Source: Craspedostauros australis (Eukaryota; Bacillariophyta; Bacillariophyceae; Mastogloiales; Achnanthaceae). Taken from it: DNA of 64,000 nt. Shown one piece after another: positions 1 to 58,422 of this stretch (its first letter is position 1; every line of letters begins with the position of its first letter). The stretch lies in NCBI GenBank assembly GCA_026770025.1, contig JAMXDE010000005.1, positions 1,116,001 through 1,180,000 on the forward strand. The letters are read 5' to 3'. A program made the translations under genes and the position numbers. The notes beneath the pieces were generated by a model that was not told the origin of the DNA, did no database searches, and saw only the letters and a list, made by a program, of their open reading frames with translations.

Positions 1-479
1 GAAAGTGAAACAGGCAGAAGCAGATAGAGGAGAGACAAGGGAGACAACCCACCAACTTTACCCTTATCCTCATTATCAACATCATCACCAGCAACACCCA
101 AGCCACTTCCTTCGCCAGTGTTGTCAGCGCCACCAGCGCCGCCGCCATTGCCACCATCACCAAAACAGCATCACCAACACCATCGTTCGTCTTTGAGGAG
201 GGGGAGTCCACCCTTTTTCAGAGTTTGTAGAAGTAGCACACGCTGAGTATCGTTGGTAAAACAGAATAGATTGGACCATTTCGGCGCAACAAGAGGCATC
301 TTGCCCAACAGCGCGACTACCAACAGCTCCAATTCAAACAGCTCCAACAACAGGAGGCAACTGCACCAAATAGATCAGCTTCGCCACTTCCTGTCGAGCC
401 GAAAGACCGAAACGCGTTCCTCCAACCAGCAGCCACCCAGCAACCACTCAGAAGCCTCTCACAGGAACATCCAAGGAGC
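1..479. other. Leader/upstream region of the cyclase gene
   Basis: This stretch is rich in CAN/AAC triplets and has several short open frames on both strands, none with recognisable domain content. It precedes the first ATG of the cyclase-phosphodiesterase reading frame and most likely holds its promoter and 5' UTR. I see no convincing independent gene. Confidence 0.5.
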
Positions 480-29520: not shown

Positions 29521-31446
29521 TCAGGACCGAAACAACCTGGTCTGTAGGATCTCATGACATGGATGGATGGTCTCGATGACAGGAGCACTGGCACCTGCCG
29601 CCTCGACAGGGTCGCCGTCACATGCGCGGATCGCCCTCTGGCTTGAACGATATCCATCTTCCACGGCTTCGTCTATCGTCGACAGCATGCGCACGCCGGC
29701 CAATGGACCGATCAATGCCAAACGGACAGTGGCGGAGATCATATCCCGCGCTGCACAGAATCCCAACAACCGGCATACCTCTTCCTCGGGCATCTCCAAG
29801 CAGGCTCCCGTGGCACCAAAGACGGGTGCGAGGTGACTGTCATGTCCTTGCAATACGTCCAGAAACATTGCGTGCCGGCCGCCGCTGTCGCCGTCCGCGT
29901 CGGATTCCAGCAACTGTTTGGCAACCCGTGCCAGCGACTTGCCTTGATCAAGCGACGCAAAGCACGCAACTTGATTGCATCCAATCACCGCCTGGACTTG
30001 AGCCTGCAACATCAGCCATCGTTGAACGAAGGCATCGAAATCCTCGTTGGCGGTGCCATCGGCGATCAACTGATATCCTTCCATGATGAATGGGACATTG
30101 GCTTGAATGAAGGAGAGCGTCGCTGCATGGATGAAATTCTTCACATCGTCTTCGGTGCGCAAGAGCTGCAATTGTGCTGCGGCTTCAATACCTGCCGAAT
30201 GGGCGAAGCTGCCGGTGGGAAGACCTGAGTCCGCCAGCATCCACGCCTTCCACGACAACGTTTGTGGCTGAGACGATGTCGACGGCGATGTCGATGGTGA
30301 TTGGTCTTCTACATCGGCTCCCTCCGTTTGTGATGCTGTCTCGGCCACTGATTTCAACGCAACCCGCGATCGCGGCAACCAAACTTCGTTCGGGACATCT
30401 CGTCGATCCTTACGTGGAATCTCCGACCGCGTTGCCCGGATGCGATCCTTGTAAAATTGCAGACCGAATTGGGATTCCAACGGTTGTAAACAATGATGGA
30501 AGATGCGGTACAGGTCTTCATTGGTGTCGGCAGCGAAGCGCACCACATGGGCATCTTGGTGGTCGGTTGCTACCTTGCTGAATCCCATGAGCACGCGCCC
30601 AGATAGACCCAGATCAATTGGCTGCGTGGCGATACCGCGGGTTCTCGTGTACTGTGCCGCCAGATCTGCCTGGAGCTGCTGGCATGCTTCGATGACATCG
30701 TCCGCCCTGTCACCGTACAGGATCATGGACGCGAATGTGTTGACCTTCCGAACTCCCATGGGATCGGCCGAGTTGTGTGACATCAACCCTGTGTAGTCCA
30801 TCAGGACAGAATCGGCTATGAACGGAATGTCGGATGCGGCATCGATGGTTGTAGATGGAAGCACGCCACTATCACTGCCGTTGTGAGTCTCACTGTTAAT
30901 CGCATCGTTCCAATTCAACGACGTCTGGGATGACAGATAGTTGAAGTCCCATCTTTCGCCGTTGCGGTATCTGCCTGACGAGAACCAGTCGATCATGACC
31001 AATGAGCTGTCCGGATGCACGTGCACATTCTGACGCTGGATGAAAGAGCTGGACGCAAACAACGCGCACGGATCGGGTGCCCACACGAGGAAGGAATCGC
31101 TGTGCAACGTCGCATTCATGGTGGCTTTGCAGGTCTGATCCGTGTTGGGCGTGTAGATGCGGTTGGATCCCTGCGTGGTGACTCCCAAAGTGGCACCGTG
31201 CTCCACATCGATGGACAACGTTGCGGAGTCACCTTGCAGCATGCCAGCCCCGTAGTTGCTCAACGAGCACACGGCGGCGCCTGCATTCTTGACGCTGGAC
31301 TTGTGCAGCGGGAGCAGTCGCGTCGGCGCCTTGTGGCTGACCTGCGTAAGCCGTGTGGTGAGGGATTTCGCAAGCTTCCCGGATCGTTGTTCGGCGCTCG
31401 CGGTCAGTCGCCCCACTCCGTGCTTCACTGCTTGGTGATACGCCAT
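29521..31446 (-). CDS. UreD-UreF fusion, urease nickel-insertion chaperone
   Basis: From the ATG at 31446 the frame encodes 641 residues. The frame is open further upstream to 31782, but that part has no ATG and would add a membrane segment foreign to this family. Residues ~40-370 are UreD/UreH: THKAP-like LLPLHK, then SLSNYGAGMLQGDSATLSI, EHGATLGVTTQGSNRIY and WFSSGRYRNGERWDF. A Ser/Thr/Gln linker (~370-393) leads to UreF (~395-641): AWMLADSGLPTGSFAHSAGIE, the family's signature; FIQANVPFIMEGY; GHDSHLAPVFGATGACLEM; and a tail ISATVRLALIGPLAG. Both normally act together with UreG in a (UreD-UreF-UreG)2 complex that delivers Ni2+ to apo-urease. Fusion would enforce 1:1 stoichiometry. No UreG or urease is in this window. 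Confidence 0.92.
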   Translation of the reverse strand: MAYHQAVKHGVGRLTASAEQRSGKLAKSLTTRLTQVSHKAPTRLLPLHKSSVKNAGAAVCSLSNYGAGMLQGDSATLSIDVEHGATLGVTTQGSNRIYTPNTDQTCKATMNATLHSDSFLVWAPDPCALFASSSFIQRQNVHVHPDSSLVMIDWFSSGRYRNGERWDFNYLSSQTSLNWNDAINSETHNGSDSGVLPSTTIDAASDIPFIADSVLMDYTGLMSHNSADPMGVRKVNTFASMILYGDRADDVIEACQQLQADLAAQYTRTRGIATQPIDLGLSGRVLMGFSKVATDHQDAHVVRFAADTNEDLYRIFHHCLQPLESQFGLQFYKDRIRATRSEIPRKDRRDVPNEVWLPRSRVALKSVAETASQTEGADVEDQSPSTSPSTSSQPQTLSWKAWMLADSGLPTGSFAHSAGIEAAAQLQLLRTEDDVKNFIHAATLSFIQANVPFIMEGYQLIADGTANEDFDAFVQRWLMLQAQVQAVIGCNQVACFASLDQGKSLARVAKQLLESDADGDSGGRHAMFLDVLQGHDSHLAPVFGATGACLEMPEEEVCRLLGFCAARDMISATVRLALIGPLAGVRMLSTIDEAVEDGYRSSQRAIRACDGDPVEAAGASAPVIETIHPCHEILQTRLFRS

Positions 31447-31879
31447 GTCCTGTCTTCTCTTGCTCTCTAGGACTGCACACTCAATAGAAGACTGTACGTG
31501 GACTTGTGTCTCCGTGTATCCGTGTGGGTCAACGTACGGATAGCGCGTTCGTGGATGCCTCGTCGCAGCGTGGGCGTGTGTTTCCACGATTCTTGGTGTT
31601 GCTCTTTGTGACGCGGCGACAACAAAAGCAACCAGAACAACCAGAACAACCAGAACAAGAAGCCAAAGTTCCCATCTCGTCCACCGAAGATCTTTCTTCG
31701 GAGAAAAGATCGTATCTTTCCAATCATCAACCTTTGGCTTGCGGGAAGATGCGTCTCCATCATCCCCAACAAGGATGATCACGGTGCTGACACATCTTCT
31801 ACATAGGCGCGATGCCTCTCATATGTGTTGCTATTCCAATATCATATTATATTATACTCTAGGGCATGCGTGAACGCCA
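31447..31879. other. Intergenic region
   Basis: It contains the leader of the UreD-UreF gene and the 3' flank of the palmitoyltransferase gene, with an AT-rich TATA-like tract near 31842-31858. No gene seen. Confidence 0.55.
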
Positions 31880-33748
31880 TCACCGGTGCTCATCGCGCGC
31901 CTTCTCTCTCATCAATCTATCCGGCATTGTGTACCCCATGACCCTGTCGTGATCTTCAAAGATGGGATCAATGGGAAAAGGCCACGTCCAATACCCTTGG
32001 ACTCCAAAGATGTCCTTCAGTTCCATCGGCTCTTCATCTGCCTTATGCACAGTATTGTCGGCCTTCTTTTTCAACCGATCGATGGTCCCCACACCCGTCA
32101 TAATTCCAAACGTCACGTTCATCAGCATCGATGATGTGAACAGCAGCGTGAACAGACAGATTGCTGACATGACTCGGACCAGCTGCATCAGCAGGAAGGT
32201 GAATTCACACTGCTCATCTGTGCATCCGAAGTAATTTACGGCGAATACGATCAACGCGTAGGTACATCCTGTCCAGGTGTAACATAGGAACAGGACGAAG
32301 TGTTCTGTCGTACCAGTATGGTCGGGTGGCAAGGTGAATAGAATGCCATGCGTTCCATTGCGTTGACGGCATTGTTTGTGTCGAAAGAGGATTGGAGTGA
32401 ATGAGGGTGGTGGAGCTGTGAGAAACATAGTGCGCAAAATATTATATTTGGCAGCTCAATGTGGCACGATCTGATGCAAATGCAACACTTCATTGCACCT
32501 TGCTCAAACCATGGCACAGCTCTCCTTCGCCTTCTATTTTTTCCCCCAAAATGCATCTTTGTACTTACTCAGGTTTCCAGCTCCAACGCAACTGTAACAG
32601 AATTGAACATTGTGCAGTCGCTCGGTTGCGATCATGATGGCATGGATACAGCAACGGACGAGGAGAGAGCAAGCAAAAGATGAGATTTTGCATGTCTGCA
32701 TCAATGAAATGCCAGTCTGTGTTGGTGAGCATCATGCTGTCATCGCACTCAAGCGATACGTAGTATAGTCAAACCATCAGTGAAAAGTGATACAAAGCAG
32801 GGCGTGGTCACAGATACCCACACCATTCACTTCACAAGTCCACTTACTTGTTCATCCACGGACAGTGATCTGTGAGAGTGCCAGTGGTGCGGTGTTGTGA
32901 GTGTAAGGGTGTACGGTATATCCATGGTGTGAATCAATAATACGCAACCGTGACAAGAGTACAGAATAGAAGATGCGTGAGATGAATTGGTTCAGAGTGC
33001 AGCACACGTTGAATGGAAGCGACGACTCCAGTCGCATGCAGAGTCGCTCGAACACCATCAAGAACACCCAAATCGAGTAATCAGAGTCTGCTCCCACTGA
33101 AAAGAGTGCATTCGAGAGAATGGTGTTGTACTCACGATCCATCCTGCTGATACACCGATTGCAAATTCGACAATGATGCGACGTGGGCGGTTTGTAGGTC
33201 TGACAATGACTGCACATGGCGTGCGTTGTGATGCCCTGCTTGAATAATATAGGCGGTGGCACTGCCTCCTTGGGAATCGAACCCGGATCCGTGAAGGTCG
33301 TCTTGGCATGGCACGCCAACGCCATGGCGCAGATTGTGCAGTATCCCATCGCCACGTTGTTGCGCAGGTGGTTGTGCTCGGCAAGCAAGGTGATGGTCAA
33401 GCAGGAGTATCCCACCAGCACCCACACCGTCGAACTCATTATGGCTCCCACCTGATCGCGGTAATTCATCCAGGTTCCGTCACGTTCCTCCGTTCCGATG
33501 GAGCAACGCCAAGGCTGATCATTGAACGTGTCCTCATAATACACGACGTCATTGTCATCGCTCATGACCCCTTTGGAGTACCCGGCAGTGGCAATCGTAT
33601 CGCAGCAGGTTGCCGCCTGCGAGTATATTCTGTACGCCAACGATCTTCGATCCGATTTGTTGTCTTCTCCATCATCGCCAGATGCCGATGGAGCATTCAT
33701 GTCCATGGCAAAGTTTCCCTGCAAGATGAATCGCAGTGTTGAATGCAT
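31880..33748 (-). CDS. DHHC-type protein S-acyltransferase with microexons
   Basis: Four exons on the minus strand: 33748-33136, 32869-32848 (22 nt), 32591-32569 (23 nt) and 32304-31880. Introns are 266, 256 and 264 nt with GTGAGT, GTAAGT and GTAAGT donors and CAG acceptors. The joins are frame-exact and give 360 residues. They restore the Cys-rich domain CSHCQTYKPPTSHHCRICNRC (~177-198), then RMDHHCPWMNNC and VGAGNLKHFVLF. The catalytic DHHC Cys (~208) is encoded on the first microexon. Membrane spans lie at ~105-125, before the Cys-rich domain, and twice after it (VLFLCYTWTGCTYALIVFAV; MSAICLFTLLFTSSMLM). The enzyme transfers palmitate from acyl-CoA to protein cysteines, normally at Golgi or plasma membrane. 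A later ATG (MDMNAP, 33706) is an alternative start, because the first 14 codons contain an acceptor-like CAG. Confidence 0.93.
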
Positions 33749-34971
33749 TGGAGAAGTTTGATGCCACGAACGTCACATGATCAGTTGTTTGTGAATTGTG
33801 GTGGTATGGCGATGCAGCCGTTGGTTGGCCCAGTGCATGGCCCAGGGCATGGCCCATCGCGATGACATGAAAGGAAACGCAGATTGTGAGCATTGGAATG
33901 AAAGAATGAAGGCACAACCTCCTTGCGCATCATGCACAAACGGGGAGTGCACACGACAGCAACACCTGAACCACCCACTGAAGCTACTGCAGCTACGGTT
34001 TGTGCTGTACACTGTCACTCAACTTACATTGGCGCCACTTCGTTTTCTTGCGGCAGCCCCGTTGCCCCGGGACCGTCCACCGAACAACGGCGTTGCCTCC
34101 GCTTCGCTGAATGCCATTCTTCTCCTGCTGTCGTTCTCGTTGTTGATTCAAAGAAGCTGTCCCTGCTCAATGTTCACGCCAGATTGAATAGCCTGCGAGG
34201 AGTACGACCTATGTAGGTATCCCACTTGTCGACATCCATTCACCCTCTGTGTTGCATACGTAGTCTGTAGAGTCATCCATGCATGTCCTGCCTCCAATCA
34301 ATGCGTCAATGCACATCTCTTGATACAACCACGAGGAAGGCAACCACATCAAGTTTCCACCTTCCATCATTGTTTTCGTGTGTCGTGTGCCCTGTTGTTC
34401 CGTGTTTGAGACAGCGTTGGCTTTGATTCTTGCTTTTCGACCAAAACCTCTGTTCTCAACATAACCGTAATGTAACGGTATCTTCAGAATCGTGAGCCTT
34501 GACTCCATTGACCGTTTCGCGTTGACTCCAGGTGGTCGTTCTGTGCATCTGTTTTCATGACGTTCTACGAAACTAATCAAGTACAAATGAACGGGATTGC
34601 TCCTTCTTGGAAGTGGTCGATCCTTTTTGTTCAACTTGCGTCTTTGTGGGGAGGAGCACGCGCAACAACAGGAAACTGCGCGAACGGAAGGACCAACAAG
34701 AGGATCGCTGCCAAGGGAGAGACGAGAGAGAGAAGGATCACCAACGTCTTGATGGCACCAAAAGGCCGCGCGTGGATGTGGAGAGTGCGTCCGCCAACAG
34801 CGACGGCATCGCGGTGCGGGTAGCTCGTGCGGTGGCAAACCAAACACAGGCAAGTGTCACGCCCAATAGCAGCACCACAGACAGCGATACTCTCACGCAG
34901 CACGTCATCAAGACATCACCAACACATACACACACCCATCAAACCAAGATAGCACCGTACTCGTATCCACC
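33749..34971. other. Gene-free interval
   Basis: Several frames of 90-210 codons exist on both strands (for example 34209-34853 minus, 33923-34216 plus), but they overlap each other and show no domain, membrane pattern or codon bias like the neighbours. CACACA tracts occur at ~34920-34936. It contains divergent promoters for the palmitoyltransferase and the plastid protein. Confidence 0.5.
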
Positions 34972-47808: not shown

Positions 47809-49144
47809 ATTGACATTCCAACAACTATGGATGAGCAGGACGCATCAAAGGAATAAAGTTGGAGGTTCCTACAAAGTTTGAGGTTGAAAGACTGCCTGGA
47901 AAGTGTTGACAGAAAGGAACAAGCGGAGGACAATCGGTTTCCGAGGGATGGTGAAGCACCTATCACATGACTTTGGCTGGTGTGGTGGTGCATATGAACA
48001 TCCACCACATCGCCAACCCACCCATGCAAGCTATGTGAAGCATCAAGCCAGGAATGGGATGGAGAAGTGGGGATTGGATTTATTGAATGGAAGAGGTTGC
48101 AATCGATCAAATGCAGCAAATGCATGTTATTGACATGAAAGACAATTGACAATGGCACCAGCATCAGGATGGATTGAATTGCAGAGATGCAACTTGGGGC
48201 AATTTGGGATACATCGGGGTGTCCTCAATACCTCAGGTACTGAGGTGTGCTGCATGAGGAGAACTGACATGGTTGCGAGCAAGAGATATGATCCAGCACA
48301 GCAGCCGCCTCCGGATCGACCTTCATTGCCAAACATGTTGGTTTTCAACTGTGTGCTGACAATGTGCACTGAATCGAGATACAACTGTGCATGCTTGCCA
48401 GGGATGGATACACATGGGCTATATGGAGACAATGTGGCACCCAGGTGGAATGACATGATGGCGCACATCATCTTGTATGGCGAAGTGATGGCAATATGAT
48501 GCCCTCCATAGTTTGGGGGAGCACACAATCACACAATATCAACAAAAATGATGTTAAATCTAAAGTCAATTTCAATGTAACTTCAATATTCCTATACATC
48601 GCCAGTGAGGTGTTCACAAGGCACACTTCTTCTCCTTTTCGAATGATCTGGTGCTGCTACATAGGATGATAGGCGCTTTTTGGATGGATTGCAATGTTGT
48701 TCTGGACCGAACTGTCCCACACACCACAGGTTCCGCACTGGAGCACCAAACCTCAACAACAAGTGCTATTGGTATGACAAAAGTCTGGTGCATCATAAGA
48801 TCGATGTAATGTAATGTAATGTAATGTGACAGAACCATGGATGTGATGAAGTGTGGGTGGATGGAGATGTGATGACGCAATGGACATGATGTCATGTGAG
48901 TGGATGTGGGTGGATGCGACAGTGAACGAAATGTGATGCAGTGCCAATGTGATGCAGATGCAATCGTACAATGGATGAGGACGCCAGAACAATGCAATAC
49001 AGATTCGACAGTCCAATGGATATGATGTGGCACGTATGCCACAGAGCAAAGGATGTCATCCAAAATAGATATCATGAGGCAACACATGTGATTTGCGGTG
49101 AGTGCATGCAAACGCCTCGGTGTAAAGGATGTGATTTGGAGTGA
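47809..49144. other. Gene-poor interval grading into the satellite
   Basis: Frames near 48127-48528 occur on both strands but lack ATG context or domains. A TGTAA pentamer array lies at ~48806-48829. From ~48830 on, isolated degenerate satellite monomers appear (for example ATTCGACAGTCCAATGGAT near 49002). Confidence 0.5.
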
Positions 49145-52100
49145 GTGGATGCATATGCTGACTCTACAGTCGAATGCGTGTCATCTGGAGTGAGTGGGCA
49201 AGCAGTCGACAGTCCAATGGATGTGGCTTGGCGCGAGTGCTGGTGGATGTGCCAGTCGGATGGTTGTAACTTGGTGGGAGTGGATGTGGATTCGACAGTC
49301 CAGTTGGTGTGGCTGGGTGCGACTGGGTGTGGATTCGACAGTCCAGTTGGTGCGACTGGATGCGGATTCGACAGATCAGTTGGTGTGGCTTGGTGAGAGT
49401 GGGTGTGGATTCGACAGTCCAGTTGGTGAGAGTGGATATGAATTCGACAGTCCAGTTGGTGTGGCTGGGTGCGACTGGGTGTGGATTCAACAGATCAGTT
49501 GGTGTGGCTTGGTGAGAGTGGGTGTGGATTCGACAGTCGAGTTGGTGAGAGTGGATATGAATTCGACAGTCCAGTTGGTGTGGCTGGGTGCGACTGGGTG
49601 TGGATTCGACAGTCCAGTTGGTGAGAGTGGATATGAATTCGACAGTCCAGTTGGTGTGGCTGGGTGCGACTGGGTGTGGATTCGACAGTCCAGTTGGTGC
49701 GACTGGGTGTGGATTCAACAGATCAGTTGGTGTGGCTTGGTGAGAGTGGGTGTGGATTCAACAGATCAGTTGGTGTGGCTTGGTGAGAGTGGGTGTGGAT
49801 TCGACAGTCGAGTTGGTGAGAGTGGATATGAATTCGACAGTCCAATTGGTGTGGCTTGGTACGACTGGGTGTGGATTCGACAGTCGAGTTGGTGAGAGTG
49901 GATATGAATTCGACAGTCCAGTTGGTGTGGCTGGGTGCGACTGGGTGTGGATTCGACAGTCCAGTTGGTGAGAGTGGATATGAATTCGACAGTCCAGTTG
50001 GTGTGGCTGGGTGCGACTGGGTGTGGATTCAACAGATCAGTTGGTGTGGCTTGGTGAGAGTGGGTGTGGATTCGACAGTCCAGTTGGTGCGACTGGGTGT
50101 GGATTCAACAGATCAGTTGGTGTGGCTTGGTGAGAGTGGGTGTGGATTCGACAGTCGAGTTGGTGAGAGTGGATATGAATTCGACAGTCCAATTGGTGTG
50201 GCTTGGTACGACTGGGTGTGGATTCGACAGTCGAGTTGGTGAGAGTGGATATGAATTCGACAGTCCAGTTGGTGTGGCTGGGTGCGACTGGGTGTGGATT
50301 CGACAGTCCAGTTGGTGAGAGTGGATATGAATTCGACAGTCCAGTTGGTGTGGCTGGGTGCGACTGGGTGTGGATTCGACAGTCCAGTTGGTGCGACTGG
50401 GTGTGGATTCAACAGATCAGTTGGTGTGGCTTGGTGAGAGTGGGTGTGGATTCAACAGATCAGTTGGTGTGGCTTGGTGAGAGTGGGTGTGGATTCGACA
50501 GTCGAGTTGGTGAGAGTGGATATGAATTCGACAGTCCAATTGGTGTGGCTTGGTACGACTGGGTGTGGATTCGACAGTCGAGTTGGTGAGAGTGGATATG
50601 AATTCGACAGTCCAGTTGGTGTGGCTGGGTGCGACTGGGTGTGGATTCGACAGTCCAGTTGGTGAGAGTGGATATGAATTCGACAGTCCAGTTGGTGTGG
50701 CTGGGTGCGACTGGGTGTGGATTCGACAGTCCAGTTGGTGCGACTGGGTGTGGATTCAACAGATCAGTTGGTGTGGCTTGGTGAGAGTGGGTGTGGATTC
50801 AACAGATCAGTTGGTGTGGCTTGGTGAGAGTGGGTGTGGATTCGACAGTCGAGTTGGTGAGAGTGGATATGAATTCGACAGTCCAATTGGTGTGGCTTGG
50901 TACGACTGGGTGTGGATTCGACAGTCGAGTTGGTGAGAGTGGATATGAATTCGACAGTCCAGTTGGTGTGGCTGGGTGCGACTGGGTGTGGATTCGACAG
51001 TCCAGTTGGTGAGAGTGGATATGAATTCGACAGTCCAGTTGGTGTGGCTGGGTGCGACTGGGTGTGGATTCAACAGATCAGTTGGTGTGGCTTGGTGAGA
51101 GTGGGTGTGGATTCGACAGTCCAGTTGGTGCGACTGGGTGTGGATTCAACAGATCAGTTGGTGTGGCTTGGTGAGAGTGGGTGTGGATTCGACAGTCGAG
51201 TTGGTGAGAGTGGATATGAATTCGACAGTCCAATTGGTGTGGCTTGGTACGACTGGGTGTGGATTCGACAGTCGAGTTGGTGAGAGTGGATATGAATTCG
51301 ACAGTCCAGTTGGTGTGGCTGGGTGCGACTGGGTGTGGATTCGACAGTCCAGTTGGTGAGAGTGGATATGAATTCGACAGTCCAGTTGGTGTGGCTGGGT
51401 GCGACTGGGTGTGGATTCGACAGTCCAGTTGGTGCGACTGGGTGTGGATTCAACAGATCAGTTGGTGTGGCTTGGTGAGAGTGGGTGTGGATTCAACAGA
51501 TCAGTTGGTGTGGCTTGGTGAGAGTGGGTGTGGATTCGACAGTCGAGTTGGTGAGAGTGGATATGAATTCGACAGTCCAATTGGTGTGGCTTGGTACGAC
51601 TGGGTGTGGATTCGACAGTCGAGTTGGTGAGAGTGGATATGAATTCGACAGTCCAGTTGGTGTGGCTGGGTGCGACTGGGTGTGGATTCGACAGTCCAGT
51701 TGGTGAGAGTGGATATGAATTCGACAGTCCAGTTGGTGTGGCTGGGTGCGACTGGGTGTGGATTCAACAGATCAGTTGGTGTGGCTTGGTGAGAGTGGGT
51801 GTGGATTCGACAGTCGAGTTGGTGAGAGTGGATATGAATTCGACAGTCCAGTTGGTGTGGCTGGGTGCGACTGGGTGTGGATTCGACAGTCCAGTTGGTG
51901 CGACTGGGTGTGGATTCAACAGATCAGTTGGTGTGGCTTGGTGCGACTGGGTGTGGATTCGACAGTCCAGTTGGTGCGACTGGGTGTGGATTCAACAGAT
52001 CAGTTGGTGTGGCTTGGTACGACTGGGTGTGGATTCAACAGTCGAGTTGGTGAGAGTGGATATGAATTCGACAGTCCAGTTGGTGTGGCTGGGTGCGACT

Positions 52101-52236
52101 GGGTGTGGATTCAACAGATCAGTGGGTGTGGCTTGGTGAGAGTGGGTGTGGATTCGACAGTCGAGTTGGTGAGAGTGGATATGAATTCGACAGTCCAGTT
52201 GGTGTGGCTGGGTGCGACTGGGTGTGGATTTATTAG
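49145..52236 (+). repeat. Tandem satellite of 33/43-bp monomers in a 347-bp higher-order repeat
   Basis: Monomers share ATTCGACAGTCCAGTTGGTG and come in ~33-bp and ~43-bp forms. The variant TCCAATTGGT recurs at 49841, 50188, 50535, 50882, 51229 and 51576, exactly 347 bp apart each time; 347 equals five 43s plus four 33s. Two arrangements of monomers inside the 347-bp unit alternate in the order A, B, B, A, B, A. The left flank (48830-49280) carries older, degenerate monomers, while the centre is nearly uniform. Open frames inside are by-products of monomer length and are not counted as genes. Confidence 0.95.
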
Positions 52237-52547: not shown

Positions 52548-53025
52548 GTTTATCATTCTCATCCGCTCATGCGGGCATGTGCGAGCGTGTAGGGACCGCC
52601 TGAAGAGGCGACGATAATACTGGGACCCCGCTCCGAGGGTGGACCGTCACCAAGCCGGCACTGCTTGTGCTGTGCTGCATCCTCTTTGACCATGGTGTGC
52701 TGATGCAGAGTGACCGGCATCAGCGGGATGCAATCTCACCGTTCGCGTTGCGAGGTGTTGATGACACTGGTGGACGCACCGACCGTGGGTCACACGGAAA
52801 TCCCTACTGAGACACACGCTGTCATCAGCGTAAAGATCGTGTGCCTTATTGCCCGGTCTGTGCTTCTCATCGCGGATCCACACCACGAAAACACACGTTG
52901 AAACGCTTTTTCACGTCGAAAACACACCATGTCCCAGTGTGATTTTCTTGACAACACAATCTCCCTCTCCCTTCACTACTTCTCTCTCATCCTCATCAAC
53001 CACATCATACACGAACATCAACAAC

Positions 53026-54519
53026 ATGGCAGCCGCTGCAAACCCCAACGTCAACGAGATACGTGACTATTGCAAGAACATACTCAGCTTCCCCGATGAT
53101 GACATCGTCGATGCTTTGGAGGATCAAGGTTTGACCAAATTCGACGATTTTCTCTCCATCACCGACGAAGGCGTTACTGCCCTGTGCAAGCGCATCTGTG
53201 ACGGTAGCGGATTTATCGAAAATCCTGCATACAAGGCGGGAGCCAAGGGCAACACACCACCGCAAATCAAGGATCCAGGCATCAGCGTTGGTTGGGTTCA
53301 TGAAACGAAACTGCGCCAACTTCGCTATGCACGATTCCACTTTCAACGCATTCAACGTCCTTTCACGGCGGCAGAGGCACCCATGGATCGCCTCGTTGCG
53401 CTATGGGAACTCTTCCTTGAGGAACAACGCATCAAGAAGGAAACCGAGATGGACATGCCAGAACGGCTGGTCAAAGTGGACCGTGTCCGTGACAGCCTCG
53501 AAGACATTCAGAACTACTTGGAGAACACACATGGTGCACTCGACACTCCACTTTCCTATGTGATCCGTGAGGATGCACGTAAACCCGAAGACCGCACACC
53601 GGCCATCAACGACGGATTTGGTGTACCCACCATGAAGGAGGAGCTCATTGACCGAGCCATTCATGAAGGCATCCGCTACGACGCTGACAATGCCAAAGTG
53701 TGGCAGGTGGTTCGTCATGTCACTCACGGCGGACCTGCATGGGCTTGGGTCCAAGGCTTCGAGCGCGCACGCAATGGTCGTGCCGCATTCATTGCTCTCA
53801 AGGAACACTATCACGGCGACTCCTTTCAGGCGCGCACCAAGGCAGCAGCATCCAAGACGATTGCAACCAGCTTCTATGACGGCAAGTCACGTCAGTTTTC
53901 ATTCGAACGATACGCACAGATCATGAAAGGCGCGTTCGAGGACATGGCACGATGCGGTGAACCGTTGGTGAACGCGGCGAAAGTGCGCCACTTCCTCGAT
54001 GGTATCCATGATTCTCGTCTCGACAGCGCATGCGTTGCTATCAAGATCAATGAAGCTCTTCGTGAAGACTTGCCCGGGGCCATCAATGTCCTGAGCGAAG
54101 TCATTGATCACAAACAAATCGCATCACCCAGACGCTCCATTGGCTCGATGGACCGCAGTAAAGGTGGTCGTGGCAACCGGAATGGAACACCAAGCAAGGG
54201 TGGTCGCGGAGGTCAAGGCAAACCCAAGAAGTATGATCCAAACATGGTCATCACTGATCGCCACTACTCACCCGACGAGTGGTCGGTCATGTCATCCGCA
54301 CAGAAGACCAAGGCACTTGAGATGCGTGCTGAACGAGACAAGCGCCGTGGGGTCATGTCGGTGGGCAGGAGCACGCCATCCAAACGTCCTCATGAAGAGA
54401 CCGATGGGCACTATGGGCCACGCGATGCGGCTAATCAAGGCGGTAATCCATCTGGCACCAACAATCAGGCTGGAATCGGCAGTATGGCCACCCGCCGCAA
54501 CCAGCAAGGACGTTCCTGA
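53026..54519 (+). CDS. Copia element 1 Gag
   Basis: From the ATG at 53026 there are 497 residues. The N-terminal ~60 residues look like a SAM-type helical domain (DIVDALEDQGLTKFDDFLSI). The capsid-like centre is helical, with TAAEAPMDRLVALWELFLEEQ and AFIALKEHYHGDSF. The C-terminus is Gly/Arg/Lys-rich (GGRGNRNGTPSKGGRGGQGK) and probably binds RNA. No CCHC zinc knuckle is present. It ends at TGA (54517-54519) in the same frame as Pol. The protein would form the particle shell. Confidence 0.9.
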   Translation: MAAAANPNVNEIRDYCKNILSFPDDDIVDALEDQGLTKFDDFLSITDEGVTALCKRICDGSGFIENPAYKAGAKGNTPPQIKDPGISVGWVHETKLRQLRYARFHFQRIQRPFTAAEAPMDRLVALWELFLEEQRIKKETEMDMPERLVKVDRVRDSLEDIQNYLENTHGALDTPLSYVIREDARKPEDRTPAINDGFGVPTMKEELIDRAIHEGIRYDADNAKVWQVVRHVTHGGPAWAWVQGFERARNGRAAFIALKEHYHGDSFQARTKAAASKTIATSFYDGKSRQFSFERYAQIMKGAFEDMARCGEPLVNAAKVRHFLDGIHDSRLDSACVAIKINEALREDLPGAINVLSEVIDHKQIASPRRSIGSMDRSKGGRGNRNGTPSKGGRGGQGKPKKYDPNMVITDRHYSPDEWSVMSSAQKTKALEMRAERDKRRGVMSVGRSTPSKRPHEETDGHYGPRDAANQGGNPSGTNNQAGIGSMATRRNQQGRS

Positions 54520-54561
54520 CCACAAAGTCGCATTCGACGGCTCACATCCGTCGGCGTGTCT
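54520..54561 (+). promoter_or_regulatory. In-frame Gag-Pol junction after UGA
   Basis: Between the Gag TGA (54517-54519) and the first Pol ATG (54562) the frame stays open with no other stop, so reading UGA as sense would yield a continuous Gag-Pol. The context is TCC TGA CCA. No obvious pseudoknot was worked out by eye. Confidence 0.5.
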
Positions 54562-57500
54562 ATGTCAACTGATACCCCACGGGCAGAGCTGGACTCACAT
54601 GCGGATACATGCTGTTTTGGTGACACTGCGTACATTGTGCATCAGACCGACCAAACCGTCACTGCAACTCCCTTTATTGACTCACTTGGGTCCATCGATA
54701 ATGCACCAATCGTCACAGCTGCGATAGCATACGATGATCCAATTACATATCAAACATTCATTCTTTTCTTTCCACAATCGATCTACTTTCCTCGTCTTGA
54801 ACATCCTTTATTGTGCCCAAACCAAATGAGGGCTGCGGGTATAGTCGTGAATGATGTTCCTCTGCTCATGATCAAGGAGCACGAACGGAAGCCGGAAGAC
54901 CACTCTGTGGTCTCATCCGACGACGACCTACACATCCCTCTACGATTGCAAGGCACTGTATCCTACTTCCACATGAGAAAGCCAACACAACAAGAAGTCC
55001 AGTCCGATCGTGACTGTATACACATCATGATGACGCAAGAGGCCACATGGGACCCCTCCCAGTGGTCGTCAGGGGACGACGAAGACGCCATCCGTGCGTC
55101 TCTCTCATCACAACGAACCATATCGTCCATCAACATCCGTGGCACACACACGTCCAATCGAAAGGGGACTATCACGCCTGACGTCCTCGCACAACGCTGG
55201 CGCATTGGAACGGAAGCCGCATCACGTACCCTTGACGCAACAACACAGTTGGCCATTCGCGACTTTCGTCACTCATCAGGAACACGTCGCCTCAATCCAT
55301 ACGCCATGCAACTACGATACCGTCGACTCAACACCCAACTCTATGCCGACACCATGCACGCAAAGACCAAGTCGATTCGTGGCAACAAATGCGCCATGAT
55401 CTATTGCACACCGTTTCACTGGGTCCGGGTGTACCCAATGGCGGAACGCAAGGAAGCACATCGCACACTCGACGAACTGTTCCGTGACCACGGCATCCCA
55501 CATACCATCATCCCAGACAACGCCAAAGAGCTCGTAGCCGGCGAATTCCGTCGCAAGCTACACAAAGCACAAGTATCCATCCGACCAATCGAAGCATATA
55601 TCCACAATCAGAACAAAGCAGAAGCAACCATCCGTGAGCTTCGACGCCATTATCGACGGCTGATGACCTCGACCGATACACCAGAATACTTGTGGGACTA
55701 CTGCTTCGAGTACTGTGCCGAGATTCGCAGTCACACTGCACTCGCCATCCATGATCTTCACGGCGAGACACCGGCCACCATCTTGTCCGGTGACACTGCT
55801 GACATCTCTCACATTGCTGAATTTGGTTGGTTTGACTTTGTGTGGTATATCAACATCCAGGATGCATCCATGAATGTCAAGCAACTTGGTCGATACCTTG
55901 GGCCAAGTCGCTCTGTTGGTGATGCAATGTGCTCGTACATCCTCACTGCCAACGGCATTGTTGTCTCCAAATCATCTGTTTTGCCTCTTTCTCACGACGA
56001 TACACACAGCGACGTCATCACACATAAATGCAATGAATTCATGGACACACTTCGATCCAAATGGAAGCAACGAATGGAAGGCATCACAATCGACGACGAC
56101 GGCGACGACGTTGACGATACTGCAGCAGACATCGCCATCCTGCAGAATACTGAACCACTGGAACCAATCGTGGAGCCAGACGATGTCGACAGTGCAACCT
56201 TCGACAAATACATCGCAACCAAAGTCATTCTACCGACAGGGGACGAAATGCAACATGGAACAGTCAAACAACGCAAACGAGACACAGAAGGCAACCTCAT
56301 CGGCCGCTCTCATCCGAATCCTATGCTTGACACCGCCCAATACGAAGTCGAATTCCTTGACGGACATCACGAGGTGTTCAGCGCCAACCAAATTGCGGAG
56401 AACATCTACGCGCGCATCGATGACGACGTATACACGACTGTGCTGATGGACGAAATCATCGATCACAAACGCTTGCCCTCTGTTTCTTCTCCTTCTCCTC
56501 ATTCTAAATCCACAAAAGGCTGGAAGCTCTGCATCCGATGGAAGGATGGGTCCACATCATGGATTCACCTACGCGACGCAAAAGAAGCCGACCCAGTACG
56601 CGTTGCCGAATACGCTGCAGACAATAAACTCATCAACGAACCTGCATTCAAGTGGTGGGTACCACACACCCTACGCAAACGACAACGCATCATCATGGCA
56701 ACGAAGCGGCGACACGTCCGAAAGAACGAGATGTTTGGTGTGGAGCTCCCTACATCAGTGCGCCACGCACTCGCAATCGACGCGGCTACAGGCACGGATC
56801 TATGGCGACAGGCCATCGCGAAAGAAATGAAGGCCGTGCGACCAGCATTCGACATCAAGGAACTGGATACTCCCGATCCTGTGGGCTACCAATACATGGA
56901 ATGCCACATGATATTCGCCGTCAAGGTGGACCTCACAAGAAAAGCGCGACTTGTCGCTGGGGGACACATGACGGAGACACCTGCAACGATCACATACGCG
57001 AGTGTGGTGTCACGCGAAAGCGTACGCATTGCGTTCTTAATCGCCGCACTCAACGATCTGGATATCCTCGCCGCGGATGTTCAGAACGCATACCTTAATG
57101 CACCATGTCGAGAACGCATTTACACACGATGTGGTCCGGAGTTCGGATCCGATCAGGGGAAGATTGCAATCATTTGTCGGGCCCTATACGGATTGAAGTC
57201 GAGTGGAGCAGCATGGAGAGCACACTTGGCAGAGACACTGCGCGATTCGTTGGGATTCACATCCTGCCGTGCCGACAGCGATGTCTGGATGAAGCCTGCA
57301 GTTGCGAGCGATGGGTCAGAATATTACGAATACGTGCTCGTGTACACCGACGATATCCTTGCTGTATCCAAACAACCGCGACGCATCCTTGATGCGATTG
57401 ACTCACACTTTTTCCTCAAACCGAGTTCCATTGGCCCTCCAACAACATATCTTGGATCCACCATCTCACAATTCCACCTCACTGCCGATCCATCACGTCC

Positions 57501-58422
57501 CAAATGGAGCATGGGCTCACAAGAGTACATCAAGTCTGCTCTCAAGATCGTCATCAAATACCTCAACGACCACAATTTGCGACTCAAAACGAAAGCACCC
57601 AGCGTCCTACCGAACAAGTACCGACCAGAATTGGACGGGTCACAACTGTGTGATGCTGAACAAACGACATTCTATCAGCAACTGATCGGCATCCTGCGAT
57701 GGACGGTTGAGCTCGGGCGCATTGACATTTGCTGCGAGACCTCGATGATGGCATCGTACTGTGTCGCGCCACGAATTGGTCACTTGCATGCTCTCTTTCA
57801 TATGTTCGCATACCTCAAATCTCACGATCGTTCTCGCCTTGTTTTTGACGATGCATACATTGACAAACCGCCTGTGATGCAACCTAACTGGAACGATTTC
57901 TACCCTGACGCTCATGAGCAACTGCCTGCTGACATGCCACCGCCGCGCGGAAGGGAGGTTCAAATGACGTGCTTTGTTGATGCTGATCATGCAGGTGACC
58001 GCGTCACGCGACGTTCACGCACTGGTGTGCTTTTATTCATGAATACGTCACCGATACTGTGGTACAGCAAGAAACAGAACAGCATTGAGACATCCACATT
58101 CGGCAGCGAATTCACGGCGCTCAAGGTCGCAACCGAGATCATCATCGGCATAAGATACAAGCTCCGCATGATGGGCATTCCGTTGGATGGCCCGGCGGAT
58201 GTACGGGTCGACAATCAGAGTGTGGTGTACAACTCCTCACTACCAGAATCACAATTGCGGAAGAAAGCCAATGCCATCGCATATCACTTCGTTCGAGAAA
58301 GCATCGCCGCGGGCATCCTGGTGGTCCAACATGAACCATCGGAAACCAATCTATCCGATATGCTCACGAAACAACAACAAGGACCGAGACGAAAAGAACA
58401 AGCACAACGGGTCCTCTTCTGA
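54562..58422 (+). CDS. Copia element 1 Pol (protease-integrase-RT-RNase H)
   Basis: About 1286 residues from the ATG at 54562. Protease: ELDSHADTC near residue 10, using DSHA where DSGA is more common. Integrase: catalytic Asp in YADTMHAKTKS (~263), Asp in IPDNAKEL (~317) and Glu in QNKAEATIREL (~353). An acidic linker follows. Reverse transcriptase: VDLTRKARLVAGGH (~795), AADVQNAYLNAP, ALYGLKSSGAAW and the YTDD catalytic box (~928). RNase H: VDADHAG (~1138), SSxE-like FGSEFTALK and VDNQSV. All key residues are present, so the polyprotein could be active. Confidence 0.95.
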   Translation: MSTDTPRAELDSHADTCCFGDTAYIVHQTDQTVTATPFIDSLGSIDNAPIVTAAIAYDDPITYQTFILFFPQSIYFPRLEHPLLCPNQMRAAGIVVNDVPLLMIKEHERKPEDHSVVSSDDDLHIPLRLQGTVSYFHMRKPTQQEVQSDRDCIHIMMTQEATWDPSQWSSGDDEDAIRASLSSQRTISSINIRGTHTSNRKGTITPDVLAQRWRIGTEAASRTLDATTQLAIRDFRHSSGTRRLNPYAMQLRYRRLNTQLYADTMHAKTKSIRGNKCAMIYCTPFHWVRVYPMAERKEAHRTLDELFRDHGIPHTIIPDNAKELVAGEFRRKLHKAQVSIRPIEAYIHNQNKAEATIRELRRHYRRLMTSTDTPEYLWDYCFEYCAEIRSHTALAIHDLHGETPATILSGDTADISHIAEFGWFDFVWYINIQDASMNVKQLGRYLGPSRSVGDAMCSYILTANGIVVSKSSVLPLSHDDTHSDVITHKCNEFMDTLRSKWKQRMEGITIDDDGDDVDDTAADIAILQNTEPLEPIVEPDDVDSATFDKYIATKVILPTGDEMQHGTVKQRKRDTEGNLIGRSHPNPMLDTAQYEVEFLDGHHEVFSANQIAENIYARIDDDVYTTVLMDEIIDHKRLPSVSSPSPHSKSTKGWKLCIRWKDGSTSWIHLRDAKEADPVRVAEYAADNKLINEPAFKWWVPHTLRKRQRIIMATKRRHVRKNEMFGVELPTSVRHALAIDAATGTDLWRQAIAKEMKAVRPAFDIKELDTPDPVGYQYMECHMIFAVKVDLTRKARLVAGGHMTETPATITYASVVSRESVRIAFLIAALNDLDILAADVQNAYLNAPCRERIYTRCGPEFGSDQGKIAIICRALYGLKSSGAAWRAHLAETLRDSLGFTSCRADSDVWMKPAVASDGSEYYEYVLVYTDDILAVSKQPRRILDAIDSHFFLKPSSIGPPTTYLGSTISQFHLTADPSRPKWSMGSQEYIKSALKIVIKYLNDHNLRLKTKAPSVLPNKYRPELDGSQLCDAEQTTFYQQLIGILRWTVELGRIDICCETSMMASYCVAPRIGHLHALFHMFAYLKSHDRSRLVFDDAYIDKPPVMQPNWNDFYPDAHEQLPADMPPPRGREVQMTCFVDADHAGDRVTRRSRTGVLLFMNTSPILWYSKKQNSIETSTFGSEFTALKVATEIIIGIRYKLRMMGIPLDGPADVRVDNQSVVYNSSLPESQLRKKANAIAYHFVRESIAAGILVVQHEPSETNLSDMLTKQQQGPRRKEQAQRVLF

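Follow-up and report, generated by a model that had tools for sequence, protein, structure and literature searches.

The gene that we call A, on the minus strand of the window (the whole 64,000-nt stretch of Craspedostauros australis DNA analysed here), very probably encodes a functional DHHC protein S-acyltransferase whose catalytic signature, judged from sequence, is carried on two microexons whose splicing is most likely constitutive. Gene A has five exons (Table 1), and its joined coding sequence of 1143 nt runs without an internal stop into a protein of 380 residues. The predicted protein matches the Pfam DHHC family (PF01529) with 108.8 bits (E 2.8e-31), passing the cut-off of 28.7, and among proteins of solved structure human DHHC20 comes closest (E 6.5e-20), to which it aligns without gaps through MDHHCPW.NNCVG..N.K.F and with the Asp-His-His-Cys and the Cys-rich zinc pattern intact. 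A TDPG motif is present, and GTIDR stands roughly at what is presumably the expected C-terminal TTxE site. Human ZDHHC20 (PDB 6bml) and ZDHHC9 (8hf3) likewise combine the Cys-rich domain with the DHHCPW.NNCVG..N...F motif, and the protein itself is ordinary; what distinguishes gene A from the known DHHC enzymes is that the DNA from D to K of DHHCPWMNNCVGAGNLK is spread over four exons. A microexon has been defined as an internal exon of 51 nt or less, as given in the part of the source available to us (PMC12409088), and both small exons of gene A have the size and the splice sites (22 and 23 nt, AG|exon|GTAAGT) of that class. Exons this small easily escape gene finders, and an annotation that lacked them would show a broken or inactive enzyme.

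The initial annotation of this region had built the DHHC signature from exons of 22 and 23 nt separated by three introns of about 260 nt with CAG acceptors, in a frame that closes exactly, and all of this agrees with our gene model. Its junctions, 33136|32869, 32848|32591 and 32569|32304, are correct to the base, and its statement that the active-site Cys depends on inclusion of the 22-nt exon holds, as the Cys codon lies on microexon 3. Its range began at an ATG at 33748, which by the present model falls inside intron 1, and we have moved the start to exon 1. This upstream 90-nt exon is likely the better start of the coding sequence, since a putative acceptor stands in gene C at the position corresponding to the start of gene A exon 2. 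Directly downstream of gene A on the same strand lies a 753-aa open frame (29521-31782) in which two urease accessory domains, UreD (133.8 bits) and UreF (61.6 bits), occur together.

Table 1. Exons and introns of gene A in window coordinates, and the DHHC loci of the genome
Feature	Position	Strand	Description
Exon 1	34028..34117	(-)	90 nt, MAFSEAEATPLFGG...GAN; donor GTAAGTTG, phase 0 into exon 2; probable CDS start, predicted
Intron 1	33719..34027	(-)	309 nt, GTAAGT...TTGCAG; contains ATG at 33748 (model)
Exon 2	33136..33718	(-)	583 nt; encodes the N-terminal region and the bulk of the Cys-rich domain, up to ...ISRMD + C
Intron 2	32870..33135	(-)	266 nt, phase 1 at D|HHC; donor GTGAGT, CAG acceptor; 0 in-frame stops
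Microexon 3	32848..32869	(-)	22 nt, (C)AT CAC TGT CCG TGG ATG AAC AA = HHCPWMN + N; holds the catalytic Cys
Intron 3	32592..32847	(-)	256 nt, phase 2 at N|N; donor GTAAGT, CAG acceptor; gene A only
Microexon 4	32569..32591	(-)	23 nt, CVGAGNL + one base of the K codon
Intron 4	32305..32568	(-)	264 nt, phase 1 at L|K; donor GTAAGT, CAG acceptor; position common to gene B (C33)
Exon 5	31880..32304	(-)	425 nt including stop; KHFVLFL... to ...ARDEHR*
DHHC loci 1-8			A (window), B (C33), C (C3:1313k), D (C1:43k), E (C4), F (C6), G (C1:1735k), H (C15)
DHHC loci 9-16			I (C32), J (C17), K (C12), M (C8), N (C3:1022k), O (C68), P (C9:1152k), L036 (C9:1134k)

Sister genes and selection on gene A

The genome (74.8 Mb in 90 contigs) holds 21 Pfam DHHC matches, which we grouped into 16 loci. 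In gene B (modelled extent C33:200054-201107) RMDHHCPWMNNCVGAANL lies on one exon and an intron follows at L|K in phase 1, while in gene C (modelled extent C3:1313673-1312357) HHCPWMNNCVGVANMKHFF lies on one exon and the intron is at D|HHC, also in phase 1. The sequence of microexon 3 is uninterrupted with its adjoining coding DNA in both. Contiguous sister DNA covers each of the gene A junctions (D|HHC in B, N|N in B and C, L|K in C), and the three junctions are verified by it. When splice choices were filtered for the expected motif, a GTRAGT donor that restores it was available in 8/8 sister genes with an intron in this stretch; it was the sole option in E, H and I, and 1 to 4 others existed in B, C, D, F and G.

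Over the 16 codons from HHC to K, genes A and B differ by 8 synonymous changes and 1 nonsynonymous change, and genes A and C by 10 and 3, respectively. Across 268 aligned codons the A-B comparison gives a dN of 0.33 and a dS of about 1.9, the latter near saturation (for A-C, dS is infinite). The low level of nonsynonymous relative to synonymous change between A and B indicates that gene A, including its motif codons, is under purifying selection.

Splicing outcomes and the question of regulation

Loss of either microexon alone shifts the frame, as had been claimed for this gene: the computed product meets a stop at 231 codons when the 22-nt exon is skipped and at 261 codons when the 23-nt exon is skipped. 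Two further outcomes were absent from the initial annotation. Skipping both microexons together removes 45 nt, keeps the frame and gives 365 residues joined as RMD-Q-HFVLF, with exactly HHCPWMNNCVGAGNL, the active site, lost; and retention of intron 2 leaves a frame open to 318 codons that lacks DHHC. Retention of intron 3 or intron 4 brings a stop at 232 or 250 codons, respectively. The donors follow a clear consensus: 12 of the 12 listed from the modelled introns of the family are GTRAGT, four of them from gene A, and this hexamer, which occurs at 0.32 per kb of strand in the window, stands directly after exon 2 and after each of the two microexons. In introns 2-4 pyrimidines make up only 53-63% of the 19 nt that precede the CAG, and few clear branch-point-like motifs are present. 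The donors had been described as good, which is borne out (GTGAGT, GTAAGT and GTAAGT); the acceptors are CAG but, with tracts only moderately rich in pyrimidine, are not evidently strong. We infer constitutive inclusion of the microexons on two grounds: the donors fit the consensus, and each of the mis-spliced forms computed lacks either the active site or almost all of the protein beyond it.

It had also been proposed that the microexons act as an on/off switch for a palmitoyltransferase. In such a scheme the enzyme would be turned on or off according to conditions, depending on whether the microexons are included or skipped or intron 2 is retained, and the computed forms lend themselves to it: the single skips truncate the protein, the double skip yields an in-frame product without its active site, intron 2 is open and the acceptor tracts are only moderately rich in pyrimidine. 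The accessible part of a study in Phaeodactylum describes extensive intron retention and exon skipping (PMC5859163), and such splicing in a diatom makes regulation in gene A conceivable. We nevertheless regard a regulated switch as unlikely, and the proposal as unsupported, because the donors match the consensus and intron gain and loss among sister genes would explain the microexons. The lengths of 22 and 23 nt are not multiples of 3, unlike those of the usual animal microexons described in the available part of PMC8831610, the in-frame sum of 45 nt would arise by prior chance in 1 of 3 cases, and in gene B no microexons are needed for the same motif. The open intron 2, with its 88 open codons, has a chance of about 8.5% at the pooled stop content of the four introns of gene A, and we dismissed any special meaning for it. 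Mis-splicing of gene A would abolish activity, but regulation does not follow from that. Constitutive splicing remains our preferred reading; the frame-shifting microexons could still serve unproductive splicing.

The regulated neuronal microexons of animals are likewise very small and their skipping alters protein function, but they are usually in-frame multiples of 3 (PMC8831610, in the part available), whereas in gene A only the sum of 45 nt is. The conserved microexons of plants in the same source are likewise tiny exons within conserved protein motifs; constitutively spliced examples are described there, about half of plant microexons are not multiples of three, and for over 72% of 69 constitutive microexons a flanking intron is spliced late. 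That study concerns exons of 1-15 nt in plants and one green alga, as opposed to the 22 and 23 nt of gene A, and its main text contains none of the words 'DHHC', 'palmitoyl' or 'diatom'. The literature found for microexons in diatoms or in palmitoyltransferases was unrelated, judged by title.

Origin of the microexons

We infer that the microexons of gene A can be accounted for by ordinary intron turnover among sister genes. In a tree of 15 DHHC genes, drawn without L036 and with a bootstrap not fully settled, A, B and C form one clade (support 100/97) with D and F as the nearest genes (88/88), and within the clade B pairs with C (94/96). The phase-1 intron at D|HHC occurs in A, C and D, the intron at L|K in A and B, and the intron at N|N in A alone. 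On the simplest reading, the ancestor of A, B and C carried introns at D|HHC, as gene D also does, and at L|K, flanking one exon of 45 nt. Gain of the N|N intron in gene A (or its loss in B and C) would then have split this exon into 22 and 23 nt, while the D|HHC intron would have disappeared from gene B and the L|K intron from gene C. The pairing of B with C implies that the L|K intron shared by A and B requires either this loss in C or two gains. On this account the sister genes form a natural series in which a catalytic motif is cut into microexons through intron gain and loss. Duplicated gene copies in plants may keep or lose a microexon, according to the part of PMC8831610 available to us; from similarly partial sources, intron positions in plant PAT genes are reportedly not conserved (PMC3796536), and a U12 intron is reported in ZDHHC8 (PMC2831892).

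Could the extra introns instead stem from a mobile intron family (introners)? The three introns are of like length (256-266 nt) and lie near one another, as such a family might produce, but we consider this origin very improbable. Introns 3 and 4, the two covered by the copy search, each had 1 match in the 74.8-Mb genome DNA, namely itself, in a search that skips very common words; having no other match, they do not look like members of a recent mobile family. The introns of sister genes in the motif, moreover, vary from 169 to 563 nt, which also speaks against introners.

That the microexons are not real at all, being a decaying copy or a chance match of exons, is scarcely credible even though very short exons are easily mis-called: gene A is under purifying selection, its 380-residue frame is intact, and the best splice solution reaches 17/18 identities to the sister gene as against at most 7/18 in 300 shuffles. 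These figures come from the 831-nt interval between exons 2 and 5, in which we enumerated all AG|exon|GT pairs summing to 45 nt, or a single exon of 45 nt, with a first exon of 6-39 nt and gaps of at least 50 nt. The real interval gave 9 stop-free solutions, the best being the one with 17/18 identities to the gene B peptide, and the 300 dinucleotide shuffles gave best solutions of 2 to 7 of 18, where the fixed flank supplies 2/18 in every case. The shuffle test and the purifying selection together led us to reject an origin by chance or as a pseudogene.

Introns in the DHHC motif across the family

Gene A is not the only member of its family with introns in the motif. Placed on common coordinates by hand alignment and counted in nt from the first His of HCxxCxxC, intron positions fall at 40 (A, C, D), 41 (E), 44 (I), 47 (F), 52 (G), 62 (A), 67 (H) and 85 (A, B), which is 8 positions inside 46 nt of motif, in 9/15 modelled DHHC genes. 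Locus L036 has, by reading only, a matching exon end and an acceptor near 44, and in genes J, K, M, N, O and P the motif is uninterrupted. In D, E, G and H the modelled frames, which span 476 to 625 codons when measured from the preceding stop, show no other intron; the poorly conserved C-terminal part might hide some, and introns upstream of the frames were sought in A, B and C only. In a scan simulation the chance that 8 of 11 to 14 random positions fall in one 46-nt window was 0.00035 to 0.0026; this figure presupposes that the domain has 3 to 6 more intron positions, an estimate based on where exons end in I, N and P, and that all positions are independent, although a single old intron may underlie both 40 and 41. 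Beyond this genome, 46 pattern matches in the viral_contigs collection included no relative, and 17 pattern matches in the genome_contigs collection included 3 (L040-L042). In 3/3 of these no intron breaks the stretch between the D of DHHC and the F that follows NxK, so the cluster is not seen there, and L042 seems to be interrupted further upstream, before its CHHC. The contigs that carry the DHHC genes L040-L042 are eukaryote-like and had been assigned to bacterial genome bins, and the frames of L041 and L042 have in-frame stops that would fit a ciliate-like code.

The cluster, as seen in one genome, may stem from a single old intron that slid, from gains that recurred, or from selection. 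We find it doubtful that introns in this lineage have repeatedly landed in, or slid within, the DHHC motif. If it were, an intron kept in the motif would ensure that an unspliced or mis-spliced message encodes no active enzyme, and the most extreme example would be gene A, which has three motif introns and whose double skip stays in frame. A family-wide clustering of introns in the motif would also bear on how random intron placement and retention are in conserved motifs.

Elsewhere in the window, a tandem repeat array occupies 49271-52128 (a 347-nt unit in 8.2 copies with 91% matches and smaller sub-units inside), GC skew is strong across 48001-52000, and Copia-type retroelement frames follow on the plus strand at 52849-58422, with an RVT_2 match of 62.4 bits in a 1288-aa frame. 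The genome also holds 88 matches to the silicon transporter family PF03842, of which 28 are near full-length without an internal stop, and this abundance suggests a silica-using stramenopile, either a diatom or a parmalean. Sources available to us in part give 3-5 silicon transporters for most diatom species (PMC10700740) and more than 30 for some diatoms or Parmales (PMC13403384). Several of the PF03842 matches here lie close together on one contig; examples of the matches are C11:710408-712021, C9:2024068-2025684 and C2:977655-1028778.
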